This document shows, in pieces, positions 2,708 through 10,838 of a stretch of DNA of 64,000 nucleotides. Every line of letters begins with the position of its first letter. The stretch's first letter is position 1. Under the pieces are notes generated by a model, which was not told where the DNA came from, ran no database searches, and saw nothing but the letters and a program-made list of their open reading frames with translations. Source of the stretch: an uncultured Eubacteriales bacterium (GTDB lineage: Bacteria > Bacillota > Clostridia > Christensenellales > Aristaeellaceae); assembly GCA_900315675.1 (NCBI GenBank), contig OMZY01000003.1, forward strand, positions 124,001-188,000. The letters run 5' to 3'. The position numbers were made by a program, and so were the translations under genes.

Positions 2708-4075
2708 ATGAAAAAACTGACTGCGATGCTGCTGGCACTGATCATGGTACTTTCCATGGCTGTAACAGCGCTGGCGGAAGATCCCCGGAATATCACCATC
2801 GGTCTGTGGTGGGACATCTACTATGACTCCAACGACGAATCCTGGGAAGACAATGAAGCCGCCACCGGCAAGGAAACCGACCTCATGCGCTTCGACAACG
2901 TGAAGAATATCGAGGACACCTACGGCGTGACCTACGAATTCCAGAACCTGACCTATGCCGGCGTGCAGGATTCCGTGAACAACTCCATCCTGGCCGGTGA
3001 ACCGGACTGCGACGTGTACATGGTCGAGCTGGGCTGGGGTGTTCCCGCTGTGATGAACGGCTATGCCATGGACCTCCGTGACGTGCTGGATCCCGACGAT
3101 CCGCTGCTCACCCATAACGACACCGTCATGAACTATGTGGCCCTGGAAAGCGGCGCTGTGTCCCTGCTGACCGTCAACGGCGCGGAGGACCAGGTGGCCG
3201 CCACCTATCCGCTGGCTTTCAACCTGCAGATGATCGAGGAAGCCAACCTGGAGGATCCCCGGGAACTGGCCGCCCGCGGCGAATGGACCTGGGACAAATT
3301 CCGGGAGTACTGCATCGCCCTGACCAAGGATAACGACGGCGACGGCGTGACGGATGTTTACGGCTACGGCGCCTGGATCACCGACTGCCTGCCCTACTGG
3401 TACATGTCCAACGGCACAACCCTGGCCTCCACCCCCAAGGAGAACCTGTCCTCTGTGGAGATGGGCGAAACCCTGAAGTTCCTGCAGGATCTGTGGACCA
3501 CGGACAAGGCTGCTTATCCGCTGCCCGAAGAAAACGGCTGGGACGTTTGCCGCTGGCTGTACCGTGACAAGAAGGTGGCCTTCACCACAACCGCCGCCTG
3601 GATCATGGCCAACTATGATGACTATAACTGGGACGGCAAGGCCGAAACCACGCTGGACTTCGACATGGTCTTTGTGGATTACCCCATCGGACCGCACGGC
3701 AATGCCGAAACGAACGCCACCAAGATCGCTGCCGGCAGCTTCTACTTCATCCCCGTCGGCATCGAGAACCCGAAACTGGTCTATGATGTTTTCCGTGCCT
3801 ATCAGAACTGGTACCATGACGATGTTGCCCTGCGGGATGATCCGGAAGAACTGGAATGGTGGTATACCACCACTTCCGACAAGCTGGATCTGCAGGAGTG
3901 GAACTTTGAAATCATGAAGAAGATGGGCGAAAAGACGGTGGTTGACTTTGCCGGCACCGTGCTGGAGCAGATGCCGCTGGTTGAATTCATCAACGGCGAC
4001 CTGACCCCCGCCCAGCTGCAGGAGGAATACAAGCAGGTGGTTCAGGATACCCTGGATCAGATCTTCGGAGCCTGA
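2708..4075 (+). CDS. Extracellular sugar-binding protein of ABC importer (family 1)
   Basis: Substrate-capturing component of the importer whose permease lies just upstream. It has 455 residues and an ATG about ten bases after GGAAAGGAG. The N-terminus is a signal peptide (MKKLTAMLLALIMVLSMAVT, then ALAED) followed by a mature region with the usual family-1 binding-protein pattern: NITIGLWWD strand, aromatic-rich hinge regions (WTWDKFREY, WYMSNG) and a helical C-terminus. No lipobox cysteine is present, although Gram-positive binding proteins are usually lipid-anchored, so the protein may be released or held by a partner such as the repeat protein. Spacing to the gene before is about 30 bp, consistent with one operon. 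Confidence 0.88.
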   Translation: MKKLTAMLLALIMVLSMAVTALAEDPRNITIGLWWDIYYDSNDESWEDNEAATGKETDLMRFDNVKNIEDTYGVTYEFQNLTYAGVQDSVNNSILAGEPDCDVYMVELGWGVPAVMNGYAMDLRDVLDPDDPLLTHNDTVMNYVALESGAVSLLTVNGAEDQVAATYPLAFNLQMIEEANLEDPRELAARGEWTWDKFREYCIALTKDNDGDGVTDVYGYGAWITDCLPYWYMSNGTTLASTPKENLSSVEMGETLKFLQDLWTTDKAAYPLPEENGWDVCRWLYRDKKVAFTTTAAWIMANYDDYNWDGKAETTLDFDMVFVDYPIGPHGNAETNATKIAAGSFYFIPVGIENPKLVYDVFRAYQNWYHDDVALRDDPEELEWWYTTTSDKLDLQEWNFEIMKKMGEKTVVDFAGTVLEQMPLVEFINGDLTPAQLQEEYKQVVQDTLDQIFGA

Positions 4076-4103
4076 TTCCGGAACCCTGTTTCCCAAAGGA
4101 AAA

Positions 4104-4137
4104 GGGAGAGTCACAGGATTGTGACTCTCCCTCTTTT
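4104..4137 (+). terminator. Intrinsic terminator between convergent genes
   Basis: A perfect 12-bp stem (GGGAGAGTCACA / TGTGACTCTCCC) with a four-base loop is followed by TCTTTT. It ends the ABC operon. The opposite strand also runs into CTTTTCC, so it may serve thrH from the other side as well. Confidence 0.85.
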
Positions 4138-4148
4138 AGTCCGTTGGT

Positions 4149-4748
4149 TTACAGTGCTTTGCGGATCTGGGCAAGCAGCTCGTCATAGGTTTCGCAGGCG
4201 GGCAGCTCCGGATAATCCTTTTTGATCTGCTCTGTGGAGCGGAACAGGATACCGGCCTTGCTGGCCTGGATCATGCCCAGGTCGTTGTAGCTGTCGCCGG
4301 CGGCGATGGTCTCAAAGCCGATACTCTGCAGGGCTTTGACGGTGGTCAGCTTGCTCTTTTCCACCCGGATGCGGTAACCGGTGATCATACCGTCTTCCCC
4401 GACCTCCAGCTCGTTGCAGAAGATGGTGGGCCATCCCAGTTTCTTCATCAGGGGAGAAGCAAACTGGGTAAAGGTGTCGGACAGAATGATCGCCTGGGTT
4501 TCGCTGCGCAGGGTGTCCAGGAATTCCTTCGCGCCGGGCATGGGATCGATGGTGGCAATGGTGTCCTGAATATCCTTCAGGCCCAGGCCGTGCTCCCGCA
4601 GGATGCCCAGCCGCCACTTCATCAGTTTGTCATAATCCGGTTCGTCCCGGGTGGTGCGCTTCAGTTCCGGGATGCCGCTGACCTGGGAAAAGGCAATCCA
4701 GATCTCAGGTACCAGCACTCCCTCAAGGTCAAGACATACAATATTCAT
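4149..4748 (-). CDS. thrH: ThrH-type phosphoserine phosphatase / homoserine phosphotransferase
   Basis: A 199-residue HAD-family phosphatase. It opens with MNIVCLDLEGVLVPEIWIAF, matching the ThrH family, where the usual HAD DxDxT is DLEGV. Further hallmarks are the TTRDEPDYD segment, ILSDTFTQF (motif II) and AAGDSYND (motif III and acid pair). ThrH proteins dephosphorylate phosphoserine and can move phosphate to homoserine, linking serine and threonine synthesis. A TTG six bases further upstream is in frame, but the ATG is the natural start. It follows a rubredoxin gene by 15 bp, so the two are co-transcribed. Why a rubredoxin is paired with it is not evident. Confidence 0.9.
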   Translation of the reverse strand: MNIVCLDLEGVLVPEIWIAFSQVSGIPELKRTTRDEPDYDKLMKWRLGILREHGLGLKDIQDTIATIDPMPGAKEFLDTLRSETQAIILSDTFTQFASPLMKKLGWPTIFCNELEVGEDGMITGYRIRVEKSKLTTVKALQSIGFETIAAGDSYNDLGMIQASKAGILFRSTEQIKKDYPELPACETYDELLAQIRKAL

Positions 4749-4763
4749 AGACAACTTTCAGCC

Positions 4764-4916
4764 TCAGACGGGAGTAAAGGCATCCTTTCCGAGACCGCAG
4801 ACAGGGCAGACCCAATCCTCAGGAACATCTTCCCAGGCAGTGCCGGGCGCAATGCCGCCTTCCGGGTCGCCGACTTCAGGATCGTAAATATAGCCGCAGG
4901 GACATTCGTACTTCAT
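4764..4916 (-). CDS. Rubredoxin, 50 residues, with a shortened first metal knuckle
   Basis: A one-iron electron carrier of 50 residues, preceded by AGGAAGAG seven bases before the ATG. The family core is clear: [18 protein letters not shown], then [20 protein letters not shown]. The second knuckle is the usual CPVCG, but the first reads ECPCG, that is C-x-C-G rather than C-x-x-C-G, so one residue is missing between the two cysteines. The codons (TGT CCC TGC) are unambiguous. All four cysteine ligands remain. It probably serves oxygen or peroxide reduction, for example with the rubrerythrin at 11.0-11.6 kb, although that link is inference. Confidence 0.92.
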
Positions 4917-5009
4917 GTGATCTCTTCCTTTCTTTTTTCTGAACGGAAACGGAAAATCCCGTTTCTCTTTCTGGCTTAATCATAAGCATTGGCGGAAGGG
5001 AAGTCAATA

Positions 5010-5038
5010 CAATTAACAATTAACAATGAACAATGAAT
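5010..5038. repeat. Solo heptamer tandem repeat tract
   Basis: Four consecutive seven-base units (AATTAAC, AATTAAC, AATGAAC, AATGAAT) lie in the gap upstream of the GTPase gene. The same tract, base for base, recurs at 20,833-20,861. It looks like an isolated end of the intergenic element family described at 14.3, 16.9, 20.8 and 60.3 kb. Confidence 0.7.
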
Positions 5039-5058
5039 ATACCGTAAGCCTTTATAAA

Positions 5059-5088
5059 TGGACAAAGACAGTAGAATGCTGGTATACT
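5059..5088 (+). promoter_or_regulatory. Likely sigma-A promoter of the GTPase-nuclease gene
   Basis: TGGACA, then 18 bases, then TATACT. Transcription would start near 5095, leaving a short leader with AAGGAGGG just before the ATG at 5137. No long leader or attenuator of the Tet(M) type is visible. Confidence 0.55.
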
Positions 5089-5136
5089 TTTAAGGATATT
5101 ATTTGACATGTACAGACAGGAAGGAGGGAAACAGCC

Positions 5137-7797
5137 ATGGCGGGAAAACTGACGGTGGGTCTGGCGGCCCATGTGGACGCGGGCAAAACCACTCTGTCCG
5201 AAGCCATGCTGTTTCTCAGCGGCGCCGTGCGCCGGCAGGGCCGGGTAGATCACGGAGACGCGTTCCTGGATACGGAACAGATGGAGAAGGAACGCGGGAT
5301 TACCATCTTCTCCAAGGAGGCCCGGCTGACCTGGGGGAAAACGGACCTGACGCTGGTGGATACGCCCGGGCATACTGACTTTGCCGGGGAAACGGAGCGG
5401 GCCATCAGCGTGATGGACGCCGCGGTGCTGGTGATCAGTGCCACGGAGGGCGTCCAGTCCCATACCAGGACCCTGTGGAAGCTGCTGGAGCGCAGCGGAA
5501 TCCCGGTGGTGCTGTTTGTCAACAAGATGGATCGGTACACCGGGGATCGGAAGGAACTGATTTCGGCGCTGGGAACACTGTCCGACCGGATTGCGGATTT
5601 CACGGGCGATCCGTCGGAAGCCGCCGCCCTGTGTGATGAAACCTGCCTGGACCTGTATCTGCGGGACGGAACCGTACCGGAAAAGCGGATCCGCTCCCTG
5701 GTCCGGGACCGGAAACTGTTTCCCTGCTTCTTCGGCGCGGCCCTGCGGAATGAGGGCGTGGAACCCCTGCTGGGCTTCCTGGCCGCCTTCCCGGAGGAAA
5801 CGGCCTGGCCGAAGGAATTCGGTGCGCGGGTGTATAAGATTGCCCGGGATCCCCAGGGCAACCGGCTGACCTTCCTGAAGGTGACCGGCGGGGAACTGAA
5901 AACCCGGGATCAGGTGACCGGCGGTACCGGGGAGAATTCCTGGACGGAAAAGATCGCCGAGATCCGGCAGTATTCCGGAGCCCGGTATACTTCGGCGCAG
6001 CGGGCGGAAGCCGGAGAGCTGTGCTGCGTCACGGGACTGACGAAGGCCATGCCCGGGGATGACCTGGGCGCGGAATATATCAGAGGGGAGCAGACCCTGC
6101 GCCCCTGCTATGCCTGCCGGGTGATTCCCGGTCCGGGGGAGGACCTGCACAAGGTGCTGGACTGCCTGAAGACGCTGACGGAAGAGGAACCGCTGCTGCA
6201 GGCAGAGTTTGTGGAAGCACGCCGGGAAATCCGGGTGCACTCCATGGGGGACGTGTACCTGGAGGTGCTCCGCCGGCAGATGAATGACCGCTTCGGTATC
6301 GAAATCACCTTCGGTGAAACCAGCGTCCTGTACCGGGAAACCATCATGTCCCCGGCGGAGGGCGTGGGCCATTATGAACCGCTGCGCCATTACGCGGAGG
6401 TGCATTTATGGATGGAACCGCTTCCCGCCGGCAGCGGCCTGGTCTTTGACACGGATGTTTCCACGGACGATCTGGCGCTGAACTGGCAGCGGCTGATCCT
6501 GACCCACCTGCAGGAAAAAGTACACCGGGGCATCCTGACCGGCGCCCCGATCACGGATATGAAGATCACCCTGATTGCCGGAAAGGCCCACCTGAAGCAT
6601 ACGGAGGGCGGAGATTTCCGGCAGGCCACCTACCGGGCGGTCCGCCAGGGACTGATGAAGGCCGGCTGCGTGCTGCTGGAGCCTTATCTGGCTCTGGAGG
6701 TGACCGTACCCCAGGAAGCCCTCGGGCGGGTGATGAACGATCTGACCCTGATGGGCGGAAAGCCGGAGGGACCGGAGGACGCGGAGGAAGGACTCCGGAA
6801 GCTCCGGGCAGTGGTGCCGGCTTCCGCCTGCCGGAACTATGCCCGGGAGCTCAGCGCGCGGACCGGTGGGGCAGGACGGATGTCCGCTTCTTTTTCCGCG
6901 TATCTTCCCTGCGCGGACGCGGAGAATGTGATCCTGGAGAAGGGCTATGATCCGCTCCGGGATGTGATGAATCCGGCAGACTCCGTGTTCTGTTCCCACG
7001 GGGCCGGGGTTTCGGTTCCCTGGGACCAGGTGGAACAGTATATGCATCTTCCCCTGAAGGAGGAACGGAAAGCAGCGGCGGAGCCTGTAACGGCAGTCCG
7101 GACGGGAAGCGCGTCCGCTTACCGGGGTTCCGCGGAGGAAGAAGAGGCGCTGCGCCTGATTTTTGAAAAAACCTACGGACCGGTGAAGGCCCGCAGGCTG
7201 ATGAACCCTGTGCCGAAGGAAACGCCGGCGGAAAGCGCGCCGGCGGAAAAACGGCAGCCGGCGCCGGAAGGGGAAATCCTGCTGGTGGACGGCTATAATG
7301 TGCTGTTTGCCTGGGATGAGTGGAAGGACCGGGTGCAGGATAATTTTGACGCGGCCCGGATGCAGCTGACAGAGCTGATGTGCGATTACGCGGGCATGAC
7401 AGGCCGGGAAGTGATCCTGGTTTTCGATGCCTATAAGGTGAAAGGTAATCCCGGCTCCGCGGAAAAATACAAGAATATCTATGTGGTCTATACCCGGGAG
7501 GCGCAGACCGCGGACGCCTATATTGAAAAAACAACCCTGCTGGCCCGGAACCGGGCGAGGGTCCGGGTGGTCACCTCCGACCGGCCGGAACAGTTGATTG
7601 CCCTGGGCAACGAGGCGCTGCGCACCTCCGCCCGGGAATTCCGCCGGGAAGTGATCGGCGTTCAGGGCAGCATTGCTGAATACTTGCAAAAAAATTACCG
7701 CCCCGGAACGGAACGTTCCCTGGAGCGGCTGTACAAGGAAGCCTGGAAAAAGAGTAAATCGGAGGAGCAGTCTACTCCGCCGAAGCAAAGTAAATGA
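5137..7797 (+). CDS. Tet(M)/EF-G-like ribosomal GTPase fused to a C-terminal YacP/Rae1-type NYN endonuclease domain
   Basis: An 886-residue fusion. Residues 1 to about 650 form a translational GTPase of the ribosomal-protection type: AHVDAGKTT (P-loop), RGITIFSKEARLTW (switch I), VDTPGHTDF (switch II), NKMDR (G4), then EF-G-like domains II-V. A linker rich in Ala, Glu and Pro (about 665-712) leads to residues 713-850, a NYN domain with LVDGYNVLFAWDEWKD, VILVFDAY, YTREAQTADAYIEK and VVTSDRPEQ, matching B. subtilis YacP (Rae1), which cleaves mRNA in the ribosomal A site. Tet(M) also works at the A site, so the fusion suggests a factor that binds stalled or drug-bound ribosomes and cuts the message. 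The domain calls are solid; the function is inference. Its 3' end overlaps the convergent gene by 26 bp. Confidence 0.9.
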   Translation: MAGKLTVGLAAHVDAGKTTLSEAMLFLSGAVRRQGRVDHGDAFLDTEQMEKERGITIFSKEARLTWGKTDLTLVDTPGHTDFAGETERAISVMDAAVLVISATEGVQSHTRTLWKLLERSGIPVVLFVNKMDRYTGDRKELISALGTLSDRIADFTGDPSEAAALCDETCLDLYLRDGTVPEKRIRSLVRDRKLFPCFFGAALRNEGVEPLLGFLAAFPEETAWPKEFGARVYKIARDPQGNRLTFLKVTGGELKTRDQVTGGTGENSWTEKIAEIRQYSGARYTSAQRAEAGELCCVTGLTKAMPGDDLGAEYIRGEQTLRPCYACRVIPGPGEDLHKVLDCLKTLTEEEPLLQAEFVEARREIRVHSMGDVYLEVLRRQMNDRFGIEITFGETSVLYRETIMSPAEGVGHYEPLRHYAEVHLWMEPLPAGSGLVFDTDVSTDDLALNWQRLILTHLQEKVHRGILTGAPITDMKITLIAGKAHLKHTEGGDFRQATYRAVRQGLMKAGCVLLEPYLALEVTVPQEALGRVMNDLTLMGGKPEGPEDAEEGLRKLRAVVPASACRNYARELSARTGGAGRMSASFSAYLPCADAENVILEKGYDPLRDVMNPADSVFCSHGAGVSVPWDQVEQYMHLPLKEERKAAAEPVTAVRTGSASAYRGSAEEEEALRLIFEKTYGPVKARRLMNPVPKETPAESAPAEKRQPAPEGEILLVDGYNVLFAWDEWKDRVQDNFDAARMQLTELMCDYAGMTGREVILVFDAYKVKGNPGSAEKYKNIYVVYTREAQTADAYIEKTTLLARNRARVRVVTSDRPEQLIALGNEALRTSAREFRREVIGVQGSIAEYLQKNYRPGTERSLERLYKEAWKKSKSEEQSTPPKQSK

Positions 7798-9649
7798 TAT
7801 CCTGGAGACGGCGGTGCTCCCGGCTTCCGCACTCATTGAGCCGGGCACCGTTGAAATAGAGCAGGGTGGAATAGCCCCCGTCCAGGTTGTAGGCGGTTTT
7901 TGCGCCCAGCGAAACGGCCAGTTCGGCCAGCTCCCGCAGGGTCATGCCGACATTGTCCTTATAGGGGCCGGCACAGCAGAGCACCAGGTACTGCAGCGGA
8001 CCCGTCTGGCAGATGCACATGCGCTGACGGGCCTTGTCCGCGGCCATGTCCAGCCAGAAATCAGCCTCATGATAGTTTTTGACCACTTCGCCGTTTTCTG
8101 CCAGGAGCGGACCGAAGGAGAAAGCATTCAGTACCCGTTTTCCGTTCAGGAGACCGGGTATTTTTCCTTCCGTGGGTTTCTTCAGGACGGTGAAATCCCC
8201 GTCCTCGTCGATCAGGAGCACGTCCATCAGGATGGAATCCCAGCTCCCGGCGGCGCCCAGGTTGTTCTGGTACAGGACGCCCTGGCGGATGATATAGCCC
8301 ATGTTCTTTTTTTCGCTGCTGTTCCAGCAGTCTCCGTTGACGGCGACAACGGCGCCGGACAGGCCGGAAAGCCGGAGCGCGTCCATCTGGCCGAAACTGC
8401 GGAAACTACCGTCCCGGCTGGCAGCCATGGTCCGGATCTGGGAAGCGTCGGTCAGCTGAATCCGGGCGTACCAGTAATCACAGGAGCCGGTGTTGCCTTC
8501 TCCGGTCTGGACGGAAATGGTGGAATCGGTATATTCGTGATCGCTGATATATCCTTCCGGCTTCGGCGCTTTGCCGGCGGAGAAGTCCACGGGCAGCAGG
8601 TAGCCTTTGTCGGAAAAATCCTGGGGAGTGTTCAGGGGAAGCGCCAGTCCTTCCGCCACGGGAGACGGGGTTTCAACCGGTACGGCTGTGCCTTCCGGGG
8701 TCCAGCTGTCCTCAAAGGGAACATACTCATACCGGGGATGCAGGTGGTCTTCCCCGAACATCTGGACGATGGCGGCATAGTGGGGATGTTTCCGGTTGCC
8801 GGAGACGTAGCGCCAGGTGCCGGTGGTGGGATGATGCACGGTATCGATCTGCGCGTCTGGAAGGGCGGCGCGGAGAGCTTCCACCGCCAGGGGATCGGGG
8901 GCTTTGTTGATCCGCTGGGAGGAGAAAAGCCAGAGACGCTGAAGCGTTTTGATGTTCTCCAGCGGGCTCAGGTCCGAAATCCGGTTGAAGCCCAGGTTCA
9001 GGTCCATCAGGTGGGGCAGGTCCTTCAGCGGCGTGATATCGGTGATTTTGTTGTTGAAAAGCTCGGCATATTCCAGGTGCTGCAGGGTGGCAATGGGGGT
9101 GATATCTGTGACCGCGTTGCAGGCCAGGATCAGCACCCGCAGGTTTGGCAGATCGTACAGGAATTCCAGGCTGTCTATCTTGTTATGGCCCACGTCCAGC
9201 GCCATCAGGTTCCAGCAGTACTTCAGGACGGAAAGATCCTCGCTGCTGTGCTTGGCGCTCTTGTTGTTGTGCAGGGTGGACCAGGACGTGGCGTCCGTGC
9301 GGATCAGGTGCTCATGGTTCCAGTTTTTGATGACCATGGTCCAGCCCCAGCGCATCCCGGGATAACGGGCGGCCAGCATGTCGCACTGACCGGAGGTCAT
9401 CCGGTTCTGCCACATGTCCACCTGGCGCAGGGCGGGCATCCGGTCCAGAAACGCGGTAAAGGCGTCAAAGTCCGTAACGACAAAATCCCCCAGGTCGATA
9501 TATTCGGCGTCCCGGGGGTAAGCGTTTCCTTCATAAATAATGGTTTCCACAGATTCAGCACCGGCCGGAAAGGCGCTGAACAGCAGCAGAAGGGACAACA
9601 GAACCAGACAGAAGAACCGTCCCCTTGTCCGGTTTTGGTTATTTGCCAT
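7772..9649 (-). CDS. Secreted leucine-rich-repeat protein with C-terminal phosphodiester glycosidase (NAGPA) domain
   Basis: A 625-residue exported protein. It starts MANNQNRTRGRFFCLVLLSL with a signal peptide ending AGAES. Residues about 130-270 hold internalin-like leucine-rich repeats (LMALDVGHNKI, LRVLILACNAV, LEYAELFNNKI, LMDLNLGFNRI). The C-terminal 250 residues form a NAGPA domain ending in AYNLDGGYSTLLYFNG, the family signature; the human homologue removes GlcNAc from phosphodiesters. Two relatives of the catalytic part lie at 18.0-20.1 kb. The ATG at 9649 overlaps the stop of a small membrane protein gene by 11 bp, so the two are translationally coupled. An action on cell-wall or teichoic-type phosphodiesters is plausible but not shown. 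Confidence 0.85.
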   Translation of the reverse strand: MANNQNRTRGRFFCLVLLSLLLLFSAFPAGAESVETIIYEGNAYPRDAEYIDLGDFVVTDFDAFTAFLDRMPALRQVDMWQNRMTSGQCDMLAARYPGMRWGWTMVIKNWNHEHLIRTDATSWSTLHNNKSAKHSSEDLSVLKYCWNLMALDVGHNKIDSLEFLYDLPNLRVLILACNAVTDITPIATLQHLEYAELFNNKITDITPLKDLPHLMDLNLGFNRISDLSPLENIKTLQRLWLFSSQRINKAPDPLAVEALRAALPDAQIDTVHHPTTGTWRYVSGNRKHPHYAAIVQMFGEDHLHPRYEYVPFEDSWTPEGTAVPVETPSPVAEGLALPLNTPQDFSDKGYLLPVDFSAGKAPKPEGYISDHEYTDSTISVQTGEGNTGSCDYWYARIQLTDASQIRTMAASRDGSFRSFGQMDALRLSGLSGAVVAVNGDCWNSSEKKNMGYIIRQGVLYQNNLGAAGSWDSILMDVLLIDEDGDFTVLKKPTEGKIPGLLNGKRVLNAFSFGPLLAENGEVVKNYHEADFWLDMAADKARQRMCICQTGPLQYLVLCCAGPYKDNVGMTLRELAELAVSLGAKTAYNLDGGYSTLLYFNGARLNECGSREHRRLQDIIYFASAE

Positions 9650-9827
9650 CCTGGTCCTGATACCTTGCACGGTTGAAATTATCCGCCAGGTCAGCCACAT
9701 TGTTCAGTGCCTGATCCGGCGTTTTGATGTCTCCTTTTTTGAAGGCCTCGCGTTTCTTCATCCAGTAACCGATGCCCGCAAGCACGGCAAGGATAACCAG
9801 AAAAGCAATCATAAATTTACCAAACAC
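9639..9827 (-). CDS. Small single-span membrane protein, upstream partner of the LRR glycosidase
   Basis: A 62-residue protein with one hydrophobic segment near its N-terminus (MIAFLVILAVLAGIGYW), a basic patch (MKKREAFKK) and a polar tail containing PDQALNNVADLADNFNRARY. I prefer the GTG at 9827 because GGGAGGTG lies ten bases before it; an ATG at 9863 is in frame but has no ribosome binding site. The stop overlaps the start of the LRR glycosidase gene. I do not recognise the family. The tight coupling suggests a role with that enzyme at the membrane. Confidence 0.65.
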   Translation of the reverse strand: MFGKFMIAFLVILAVLAGIGYWMKKREAFKKGDIKTPDQALNNVADLADNFNRARYQDQDGK

Positions 9828-9914
9828 TGTGTGACACACCTCCCGGAATTCAGAATAAGTCATTATCAGATAAGGAAGTTTCTGCTCGCATTATAAAGGA
9901 TACGACGGGGTATT

Positions 9915-10838
9915 TCAAGCTGATGCCGTACCGTTCGCCTGTTCCCGTTCTTCCTCCTTCTGATCGAGGACGTGCCGGTCGATCCGGCTCATAAACGCTT
10001 TGGCCGGATCGGACGGGTCATAGAAAACGGGGATTTTCCGGCCGATGAAGTTCTCTTTCCCGTATCTCCGGAGGAAATGGCGGGTCACGCTGGCCTGCGT
10101 TTCATAGGAGTGATCGCTGACGGTATACTGAACCGTGCAATGGAACAGGGTGACGGGATCATCGTCCAGGTCCAGGTGGGTTTCCCCGATGATCCGGGTA
10201 ATGGTTCCTTCCGTCTGGGCGGTGGCCCGGCGGCGCAGGAAGGAACGGCGGATGAGGGTAAGCAGCCGCGGCGCTGCGGCTGCCAGCAGGAGGGCGATCA
10301 GGATCGCCGCGGTGATCCGGGTTTCCCGGGAGACGCAGCGGGTCTCAAAATCCCGGAAGACCTGGCAGGCCATGAAGAAGAGAACCACACCGAAGGCAAT
10401 CCGGAGGCCGACGGCGATAGCAAGGGCTGCTTTGGAATGGCGGCGTGAGGCGAACCAGTGACTGAGCACGAGGAAAAAGATCATCATCAGGGAACCGCAG
10501 ATGATGGCCAGGGTGGCAGACAGGGCGCTGTCCGCTGGCACTGCCTCATGCTCCATATACGCGGTGATCAGCAGGCACAGGACGCCGTAGGAAAACACCA
10601 GGGTGGAAGGGCGTTTCCGGCGGCGGGCCGTATAGACCAGCCAGTTCAGGATCACGGCGGCCAGGGCGGCCAGCAGGATCAGGAAAGCGGCGGTTTCGCT
10701 CCGGCGGGCTGCTTCGCCGATGGGCTTTGAAAGGAAGACGACGCACAAAAGCGGCGCAAGGATATAGAAAAGCAGAGCCTTCGGCAGCTTTTCCAGGAAA
10801 AAGGATTTCAGGGTGCGCAGCAAGTCGGATTTGTTCAT
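9915..10838 (-). CDS. Polytopic membrane protein with C-terminal DUF3592-like beta domain
   Basis: A 307-residue membrane protein. The ATG at 10838 follows GGAGG by eight bases, and codons further upstream in frame are not needed. Five or six hydrophobic stretches (for example LLFYILAPLLCVVFL, TAAFLILLAALAAVILNWLVY, ITAAILIALLLAAAAP) occupy residues 15-205. The tail has a beta-rich segment, GTITRIIGETHLDLDDDPVTLF then YTVSDHSYETQASV and GRKIPVFYDPSDPAKAF; the last motif is typical of DUF3592-type domains. No catalytic motif is visible and the function is unknown. It stands between two other minus-strand genes without obvious coupling. Confidence 0.7.
   Translation of the reverse strand: MNKSDLLRTLKSFFLEKLPKALLFYILAPLLCVVFLSKPIGEAARRSETAAFLILLAALAAVILNWLVYTARRRKRPSTLVFSYGVLCLLITAYMEHEAVPADSALSATLAIICGSLMMIFFLVLSHWFASRRHSKAALAIAVGLRIAFGVVLFFMACQVFRDFETRCVSRETRITAAILIALLLAAAAPRLLTLIRRSFLRRRATAQTEGTITRIIGETHLDLDDDPVTLFHCTVQYTVSDHSYETQASVTRHFLRRYGKENFIGRKIPVFYDPSDPAKAFMSRIDRHVLDQKEEEREQANGTASA

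Follow-up and report, generated by a model that had tools for sequence, protein, structure and literature searches.

A Rae1/YacP-type nuclease domain fused to a distinct Tet-like translational GTPase, and the near-replacement of free YacP in Clostridia

The closest described systems are the Tet ribosomal protection proteins and the endoribonuclease Rae1 (YacP). Translational GTPases, the Tet proteins included, have a common A-site binding region (PMC4770234); the domain IV tip loops of Tet proteins contact and dislodge the drug (PMC4342817), and the extension of Tet(M) contains a helix important for function (PMC4750697). Rae1 is a ribosome-dependent mRNA endonuclease that attacks in the ribosomal A site (PMC12320835, PMC10100781). 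In 2015, Tet proteins of ten clostridial species were reported to have acquired a YacP-like NYN domain, maybe as a novel RNase-based resistance mechanism (PMC4342817). A gene combining such parts is present in a stretch of 64,000 nucleotides (the window, meaning the whole stretch analysed) from an uncultured Eubacteriales bacterium (assembly GCA_900315675.1, contig OMZY01000003.1, positions 124,001 to 188,000). Our analysis revealed that this fusion is genuine and widespread, that its GTPase stands apart from the Tet proteins by the tests made, and that free YacP is nearly absent where the fusion occurs.

Matched by description alone, the proteins of PMC4342817 unite the same Tet-like GTPase and YacP NYN domain in one chain, and the fusion as such is therefore already known. 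An earlier reading of the window from its letters alone (the sequence-only reading) had not known the combined mechanism to be characterised. The fusion itself was named in 2015; the class of the GTPase, the likely single origin and the replacement of free Rae1 were not found in the literature searched on NYN/YacP together with ribosomal protection or elongation factor G, which covered the primary Rae1 and Tet structure literature in part. PMC4342817 gives the fusion one sentence and a guess at resistance; added here are a separate subfamily, an unfused precursor, a likely single origin, near-exclusion of free YacP, an emptied yacP slot and conserved catalytic sets. The parts of the gene are as follows.

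5059..5088, + strand: promoter-like site TGGACA-18-TATACT, its second box preceded by TG (10 of 12 matches, consensus match only)
5121..5128, + strand: ribosome binding site AAGGAGGG (read from the sequence)
5137..7797, + strand: fusion gene, 886 aa (open reading frame)
5152..5784, + strand: G domain with AHVDAGKTT, RGITIF, DTPGH and NKMD (Pfam, alignment)
5818..6315, + strand: EF-G-like domains II and III (Pfam, domain II slightly below cut-off; fold in the predicted model)
6325..6663, + strand: domain IV, the best conserved domain among 80 aligned fused proteins (Pfam, alignment)
6361..6405, + strand: domain IV tip loop with GHYEPLRHYAE (alignment, tree set)
6580..6645, + strand: domain IV tip loop GKAHLKHTEGGDFRQATYRAVR, differing from Tet (YYSPVSTPADFR) and from EF-G (alignment)
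6670..6918, + strand: domain V, EFG_C (Pfam)
6919..7056, + strand: C-terminal extension, SVFC.HGAG..V.W....YMH, the end point of 25 of 26 unfused relatives (alignment)
7057..7272, + strand: linker, mostly of low model confidence (predicted model, alignment)
7129-7182, + strand: conserved short helix D.EL..IFERTYG inside the linker (alignment; predicted model, helix residues 666-680)
7273..7695, + strand: NYN nuclease domain of Rae1/YacP type (Pfam, sequence and structure match)
7708..7773, + strand: additional C-terminal helix of low conservation (predicted model, alignment)

The gene is a single uninterrupted frame with no internal stops. In its product, Pfam recognised GTP_EFTU (residues 6-216, E-value 1.9e-49), EFG_III (323-393), EFG_IV (397-509, 1.1e-19), EFG_C (512-594, 4.4e-16) and NYN_YacP (PF05991; 715-872, 4.9e-43, 147.4 bits against a gathering cut-off of 24.6), while EF-G_D2 (228-310) scored slightly below its cut-off (26 against 27). 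Along the chain, an EF-G/Tet-like translational GTPase (6-594), with a five-domain EF-G-like body and intact GTPase motifs, is followed by the C-terminal extension, a flexible linker and the NYN nuclease (713-853). Structure alignment of residues 1-628 of the predicted model gave an EF-G/Tet fold for the GTPase body, and Rae1 is by far the closest fold and sequence to the NYN part (8.2e-28 to B. subtilis Rae1, 5mq8, among sequences of solved structures). The NYN fold, the conserved acidic set and PF05991 are shared with Rae1/YacP (B. subtilis; PDB 5mq8, 5mq9); however, free Rae1-type proteins have about 170-190 aa, whereas here the domain ends an 886-aa GTPase encoded elsewhere in the genome. 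A known target of Rae1 is yrzI/S1025. The sequence-only reading had placed both modules in one chain, and the 886-codon frame with separate Pfam matches bears this out; all the GTPase and NYN motifs that it quoted are present.

At least 599 stretches were matched in a scan of genome contigs, 598 of them were confirmed, and 80 loci were kept as relatives. Culturable bacteria with the fusion include Caproicibacter fermentans EA1 and Intestinimonas butyriciproducens. Both parts lie in one open frame in 79 of these 80 (the exception, L063, was not parsed), so the fusion is genuine and not an assembly join: it occurs beyond this assembly, and an artefact with a join in the linker is ruled out. In the alignment of 80 proteins (845-949 residues, the window protein included), twelve GTPase positions (H12, D14, K17, T18, T19, T56, D75, G78, H79, N129, K130 and D132) and seven NYN positions (D718, N721, D764, T791, D793, E797 and D815) are identical throughout, and the neighbouring S814 and E818 are conserved in 78 and 79 proteins; the NYN acidic residues, which the sequence-only reading had named in advance as a test, are thus kept. 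Columns with at least 95% identity make up 57 of 113 in domain IV, 65 of 216 in the G domain and 39 of 126 in the NYN domain. The linker is 62-112 residues long (median 78, n = 80).

The sequence-only reading had called the GTPase Tet(M)-like, which stands at the superfamily level but not below it. The best NCBIfam model for the window protein is tet_protect, with 393.8 bits against a curated cut-off of 775; the EF-G model TIGR00484 gave 282 bits against 659.4, and identity averages 29-31% in comparisons with Tet(M), Tet(S) and Tet(O/W/32/O). The EF-G-like domains, the GTPase motifs and the residues after domain V are common to the fusion and these three Tet proteins; however, the domain IV tip and the extension differ, and the fusion falls below the curated cut-off and is almost absent from plasmids. 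From EF-G and EF-G2 the fusion is set apart by a shorter first tip loop and a motif of its own. Nearly all 80 proteins have the tip loops GH[FY]EPLRHYAE and G[RK]AH.KHTEGGDFR, whereas the second loop of the three Tet rows is YYSPVSTPADFR; 79 of the 80 carry His at position 485, a residue shared with the EF-G rows, whereas Tet has Tyr. The tree set contains 57 fused and unfused rows, none with the Tet-type tip; 56 of them have His 485 and 55 have His 488, the Tet residues being Tyr and Val. In a few of these rows the tip is altered in part or to a large extent, most in L176, L186 and L187. In the maximum-likelihood (ML) tree, which has too small a Tet sample (three rows), these rows group as a separate clade (100/100) outside, with a long branch meeting that of EF-G. 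By the tests made, namely about 30% identity, a sub-cut-off score and a nearly invariant domain IV tip of its own, the GTPase is not a Tet protein. As a side observation, no complete canonical EF-G or EF-Tu was found among the PF00009 and PF00679 matches of the window genome, which include an 18-residue stub below the cut-off at a contig end (contig C19, bases 3-56) and a sole EF-G-like gene with the unusual P-loop GHGSEGKTT (contig C48, near 169600-171600); this is probably an assembly gap.

The distribution of the fusion was studied in 293 genomes of the window's class with a profile of domains IV-V and the extension (threshold 1e-40), which matched 123 genomes (125 matches). Clear fusions, defined by a frame of at least 780 codons in a genome that also has a PF05991 match, number 97; the NYN frame is listed for 83 of them, always with at least 780 codons, direct reading covered the window and three more, and the other ten rest on the GTPase frame. 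Six fusions are broken or cut by contig ends, and 20 genomes have an unfused gene, mostly of about 650 codons. A phylum sample gave matches in 26 of 299 genomes, 20 of fused and six of unfused length, with only some loci opened. PF05991 itself was found in 192 of the 293 class genomes (191 above cut-off). The sequence-only reading had asked whether genomes with the fusion lack a free YacP: 93 of the 97 have no second NYN_YacP match, and the only PF05991 match in the window genome (95.66% complete) is the fusion. Among 189 non-fusion genomes, 59 have a short free frame and 29 more a match of unlisted frame, weak in one (G261); Fisher's test for near-exclusion gave 2e-8 when limited to the 59 and 2e-15 for all 88, treating related species as independent and counting genes missing from incomplete genomes as absent. 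G156 was set aside from this set: the NYN row of its 313-codon frame (L110) groups with the fused rows, making it a cut fusion and not a free YacP. A free YacP accompanies the unfused GTPase in 13 of 20 genomes.

Free yacP adjoins rlmB in all ten unfused-GTPase genomes tested (SigH being recognised beyond in seven) and also in G284, which has both forms, thus in 11 of 11 loci. In the window genome, only about 30 bases separate rlmB from the SigH-like gene that comes next, and yacP is missing between the two (L215). The rlmB-SigH order without yacP recurs in six of 17 other fusion genomes (G018, G022, G120, G174, G191 and G238), where gaps of up to about 590 bases mean that yacP remnants are possible. 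The MrnC, SigH and YacP labels at this slot come from short motifs, and rlmB from TIGR00186 matches. The fusion has nearly replaced free YacP, and the yacP slot is emptied in the window genome.

Unfused relatives shed light on the origin of the fusion. Of 26 such proteins, 25 stop at or just past the motif S.[FS]C..G....V......H, where the fused linker starts (L185 is without the motif). The ML tree of the GTPase (63 rows) has a bootstrap that was still unsettled and long branches of Tet and EF-G that join; in it, the 31 fused rows all fall into a single clade (100/100), the NYN-less rows L160 and L161 adjoin it (90/93), and the remaining 24 unfused rows lie outside. The NYN tree places 36 of its 37 fused rows in one group (95/100), which also takes in a free YacP (L099, genome G209); fused L177 stands outside, and both L176 and L177 are long-branched and of unsure placement. 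Since the unfused GTPases stop just short of the linker position and the fused forms cluster in a single clade, a single fusion event is likely and, judging by these sequences, the simplest reading. One genome (G106) carries two unfused copies, L170 and L171.

The best explanation of these data, with about an even chance of being right, is in our view a chromosomally encoded stand-in for Rae1 that is carried by a GTPase and works in the ribosomal A site. A Rae1-type endoribonuclease would have become attached to the C-terminal end of a distinct, Tet-like kind of translational GTPase, taking the place of free Rae1. By analogy with the parent families, the GTPase body would bind paused ribosomes, or ones whose A site is blocked, on their A-site side, with domain IV extending to the decoding region, and GTP hydrolysis would release the body; the tethered NYN domain, on a linker of about 60-110 residues, could then cut the mRNA in or beside the A site and leave the cut complex for rescue by transfer-messenger RNA (tmRNA). 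We infer ribosome binding, A-site cleavage, the order of events and the rescue link from this analogy, and likewise a coupling of cleavage to GTP hydrolysis; a message-cutting role in the A site is plausible from the sequences. The C-terminal extension of TetM is located at the decoding centre, a position that would place the start of the linker near the A-site codon, and the linker should be long enough to let the NYN domain into the A site after domain IV has left; the extensions of Tet(M) and of the fusion differ in sequence. A shared site of action is likely because translational GTPases have a common A-site region and Rae1 attacks there.

Several observations weigh against this explanation. 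The full-length predicted model has a predicted TM-score (pTM) of 0.71, with the NYN domain unsurely placed relative to the body, and the order of steps is a guess, as domain IV and the NYN domain could not coexist in the A site if both need it. The two partners are not obligate, since four of the 97 fusion genomes carry a second NYN_YacP (G120, G174, G208 and G284) and seven of the 20 unfused-GTPase genomes have no PF05991 match; the frequency of free YacP in unfused-GTPase genomes does not differ significantly from that in other non-fusion genomes (Fisher p 0.10, G156 counted as free). Among the 17 other fusion genomes, nine have different rlmB neighbours, G284 keeps yacP, and the slot of G291 is unsure, probably rlmB-SigH without yacP. 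L160, L161 and L162 (genomes G288, G178 and G068) are without the NYN domain in genomes without a PF05991 match, and L160 and L161 keep the tip; L186 and L187 (G372 and G503) stay fused, with GTPase motifs and most NYN motifs retained, though the tip has decayed (NKYTD... replacing KHTEGGDFRQA); and G209 has an unfused GTPase (L174) and a free NYN domain of the fused type (L099) away from rlmB, possibly through fission or gene transfer. Neither tip nor NYN domain is therefore kept in every lineage. L160-L162, in which the NYN domain was either lost or never gained, belong to families (f61 and f17) where other genomes have the fusion; by eye, the neighbours of L099 include an aspartyl-tRNA synthetase-like gene and others.

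A further reading is a GTP-gated A-site ribonuclease: the GTPase would clear a blocked or stalled A site, the tethered Rae1 domain would then cut the exposed message, Rae1-type decay in a large part of Clostridia would be under the control of a translational GTPase, and the unfused GTPase would be an A-site factor in other Firmicutes. This proposal is tentative, and we find it possible but doubtful. A rival explanation, on the whole unlikely, is a Rae1 with a docking arm, in which the GTPase only brings the NYN domain to ribosomes or reads their state, and cleavage is the regulatory cutting of a few mRNAs usual for Rae1, with neither GTP-driven clearing of the A site nor general rescue. The near-replacement of free YacP, the long linker and the NYN motifs kept in L186 and L187 despite the decayed tip would all suit such a protein. 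However, twelve invariant GTPase positions and a domain IV that is the best conserved are more than a mere arm needs, and the GTPase seems to serve a purpose independent of the NYN domain, because seven of the 20 genomes with an unfused form have no PF05991 match at all.

Dedicated antibiotic target protection, the proposal of 2015, would make the fusion a chromosomal protein that displaces tetracycline, or some other drug of the A site, from the ribosome, with the NYN domain adding an RNase step (PMC4342817); tet_protect as the best model, the EF-G/Tet fold of the predicted body, and H412, E414, P415, G482, D493 and R495, common to the domain IV loops and Tet, are consistent with it. Against it stand the score of 393.8 bits where 775 are required, the tip AH.KHT in place of YYSPVST of Tet, and the setting of the gene, whose neighbours are listed here.

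4149-4754, - strand: HAD hydrolase gene, upstream
4764-4916, - strand: rubredoxin gene, upstream
7772-9700, - strand: gene of one 642-aa protein with leucine-rich repeats and a phosphodiester glycosidase (NAGPA) domain, downstream

The fusion gene stands alone, as the flanking genes on both sides run on the other strand. The promoter-like site, a consensus match, would imply a 5' leader of about 40-45 nt, which is too short for a leader peptide like that annotated before tet(M) in L116; this leader folds no better than shuffled sequences (z 0.42), and an Rfam search over 4000-10000 gave one match, far below the gathering score. At least 300 nt of upstream sequence were available for 75 of the 80 proteins. 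A good promoter match is present in 27 of these stretches, and in 23 of the 27 the -10 box lies 20-75 nt upstream of the start. Terminator-like hairpins ending 8-150 nt before the start were found in 12 (0-2 in ten rounds of shuffling, none on the other strand) and are absent from 63; in ten of the 12, a same-strand frame of at least 90 codons ends 6-48 nt upstream, the exceptions being L039 and L052. A family-wide leader attenuator was rejected on these counts. The hairpin of L039 directly precedes the ribosome binding site and that of L054 ends 23 nt before the start; these two could be attenuators, as target protection would have it, and L039, perhaps with L054 and L052, may have one. In the unfused set, two of 27 stretches have a hairpin, with two also on the other strand. 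Conserved neighbours were not found in 44 long loci: no family occurs in more than ten, and the largest cluster lies at scattered positions. The lack of a family-wide attenuator and of conserved neighbours thus argues against a dedicated drug-induced resistance gene, and the setting looks like that of a housekeeping gene rather than a drug-induced cassette.

A mobile resistance gene was likewise rejected, as query coverage reaches 80% or more in only two of the 1383 plasmid records with a match. Among the 30 plasmid matches listed, the fusion is carried by one, a Monoglobus replicon of 518 kb, and the others are Tet, EF-G, TypA, LepA or unannotated proteins with 26-40% identity. The Ligilactobacillus salivarius plasmid matches (H49 and H51-H57, 213-530 kb) are unfused relatives, 38-39% identical to L165 and annotated as TetM/TetW/TetO/TetS family or translation factor GTPase. 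In the phage collection, 116 records match and two cover 80%; these (MT835563.1 and MT835514.1) are unannotated faecal scaffolds covering 94-97% of the fusion and are probably bacterial DNA. A defence system was considered and dropped on a single weak LeoA match, to the G domain. Taken together, target protection appears quite improbable, and the antibiotic-response role put forward in the sequence-only reading, which overall is partly supported, finds no support in the short leader, the absence of a family-wide attenuator and of conserved neighbours, or the plasmid records, though it is not disproved. Cleavage on the ribosome of rRNA or tRNA rather than mRNA, making the protein a shut-off or RNA-processing enzyme, could draw on the proposed part of the NYN domain in rRNA and tRNA maturation (cited in PMC4342817), but is very improbable given that the closest fold and sequence by far belong to the mRNA endonuclease Rae1 (PMC12320835, PMC10100781).

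Many gut and rumen bacteria thus carry a ribosome-type GTPase fused to an mRNA-cutting enzyme, usually standing in for the separate enzyme of their relatives. One fused relative is annotated 'translation factor GTPase family protein', and the 'TetM/TetW/TetO/TetS family' labels seen on unfused relatives may overcount tetracycline resistance in gut bacteria. The single-copy replacement, the unfused precursor and the natural variants, with the NYN domain absent or the tip decayed, make the question directly testable. If the proposed mechanism is true, these proteins would represent a bacterial nuclease licensed by a translational GTPase, which would help to explain how stalled ribosomes are recognised before the message is cut.

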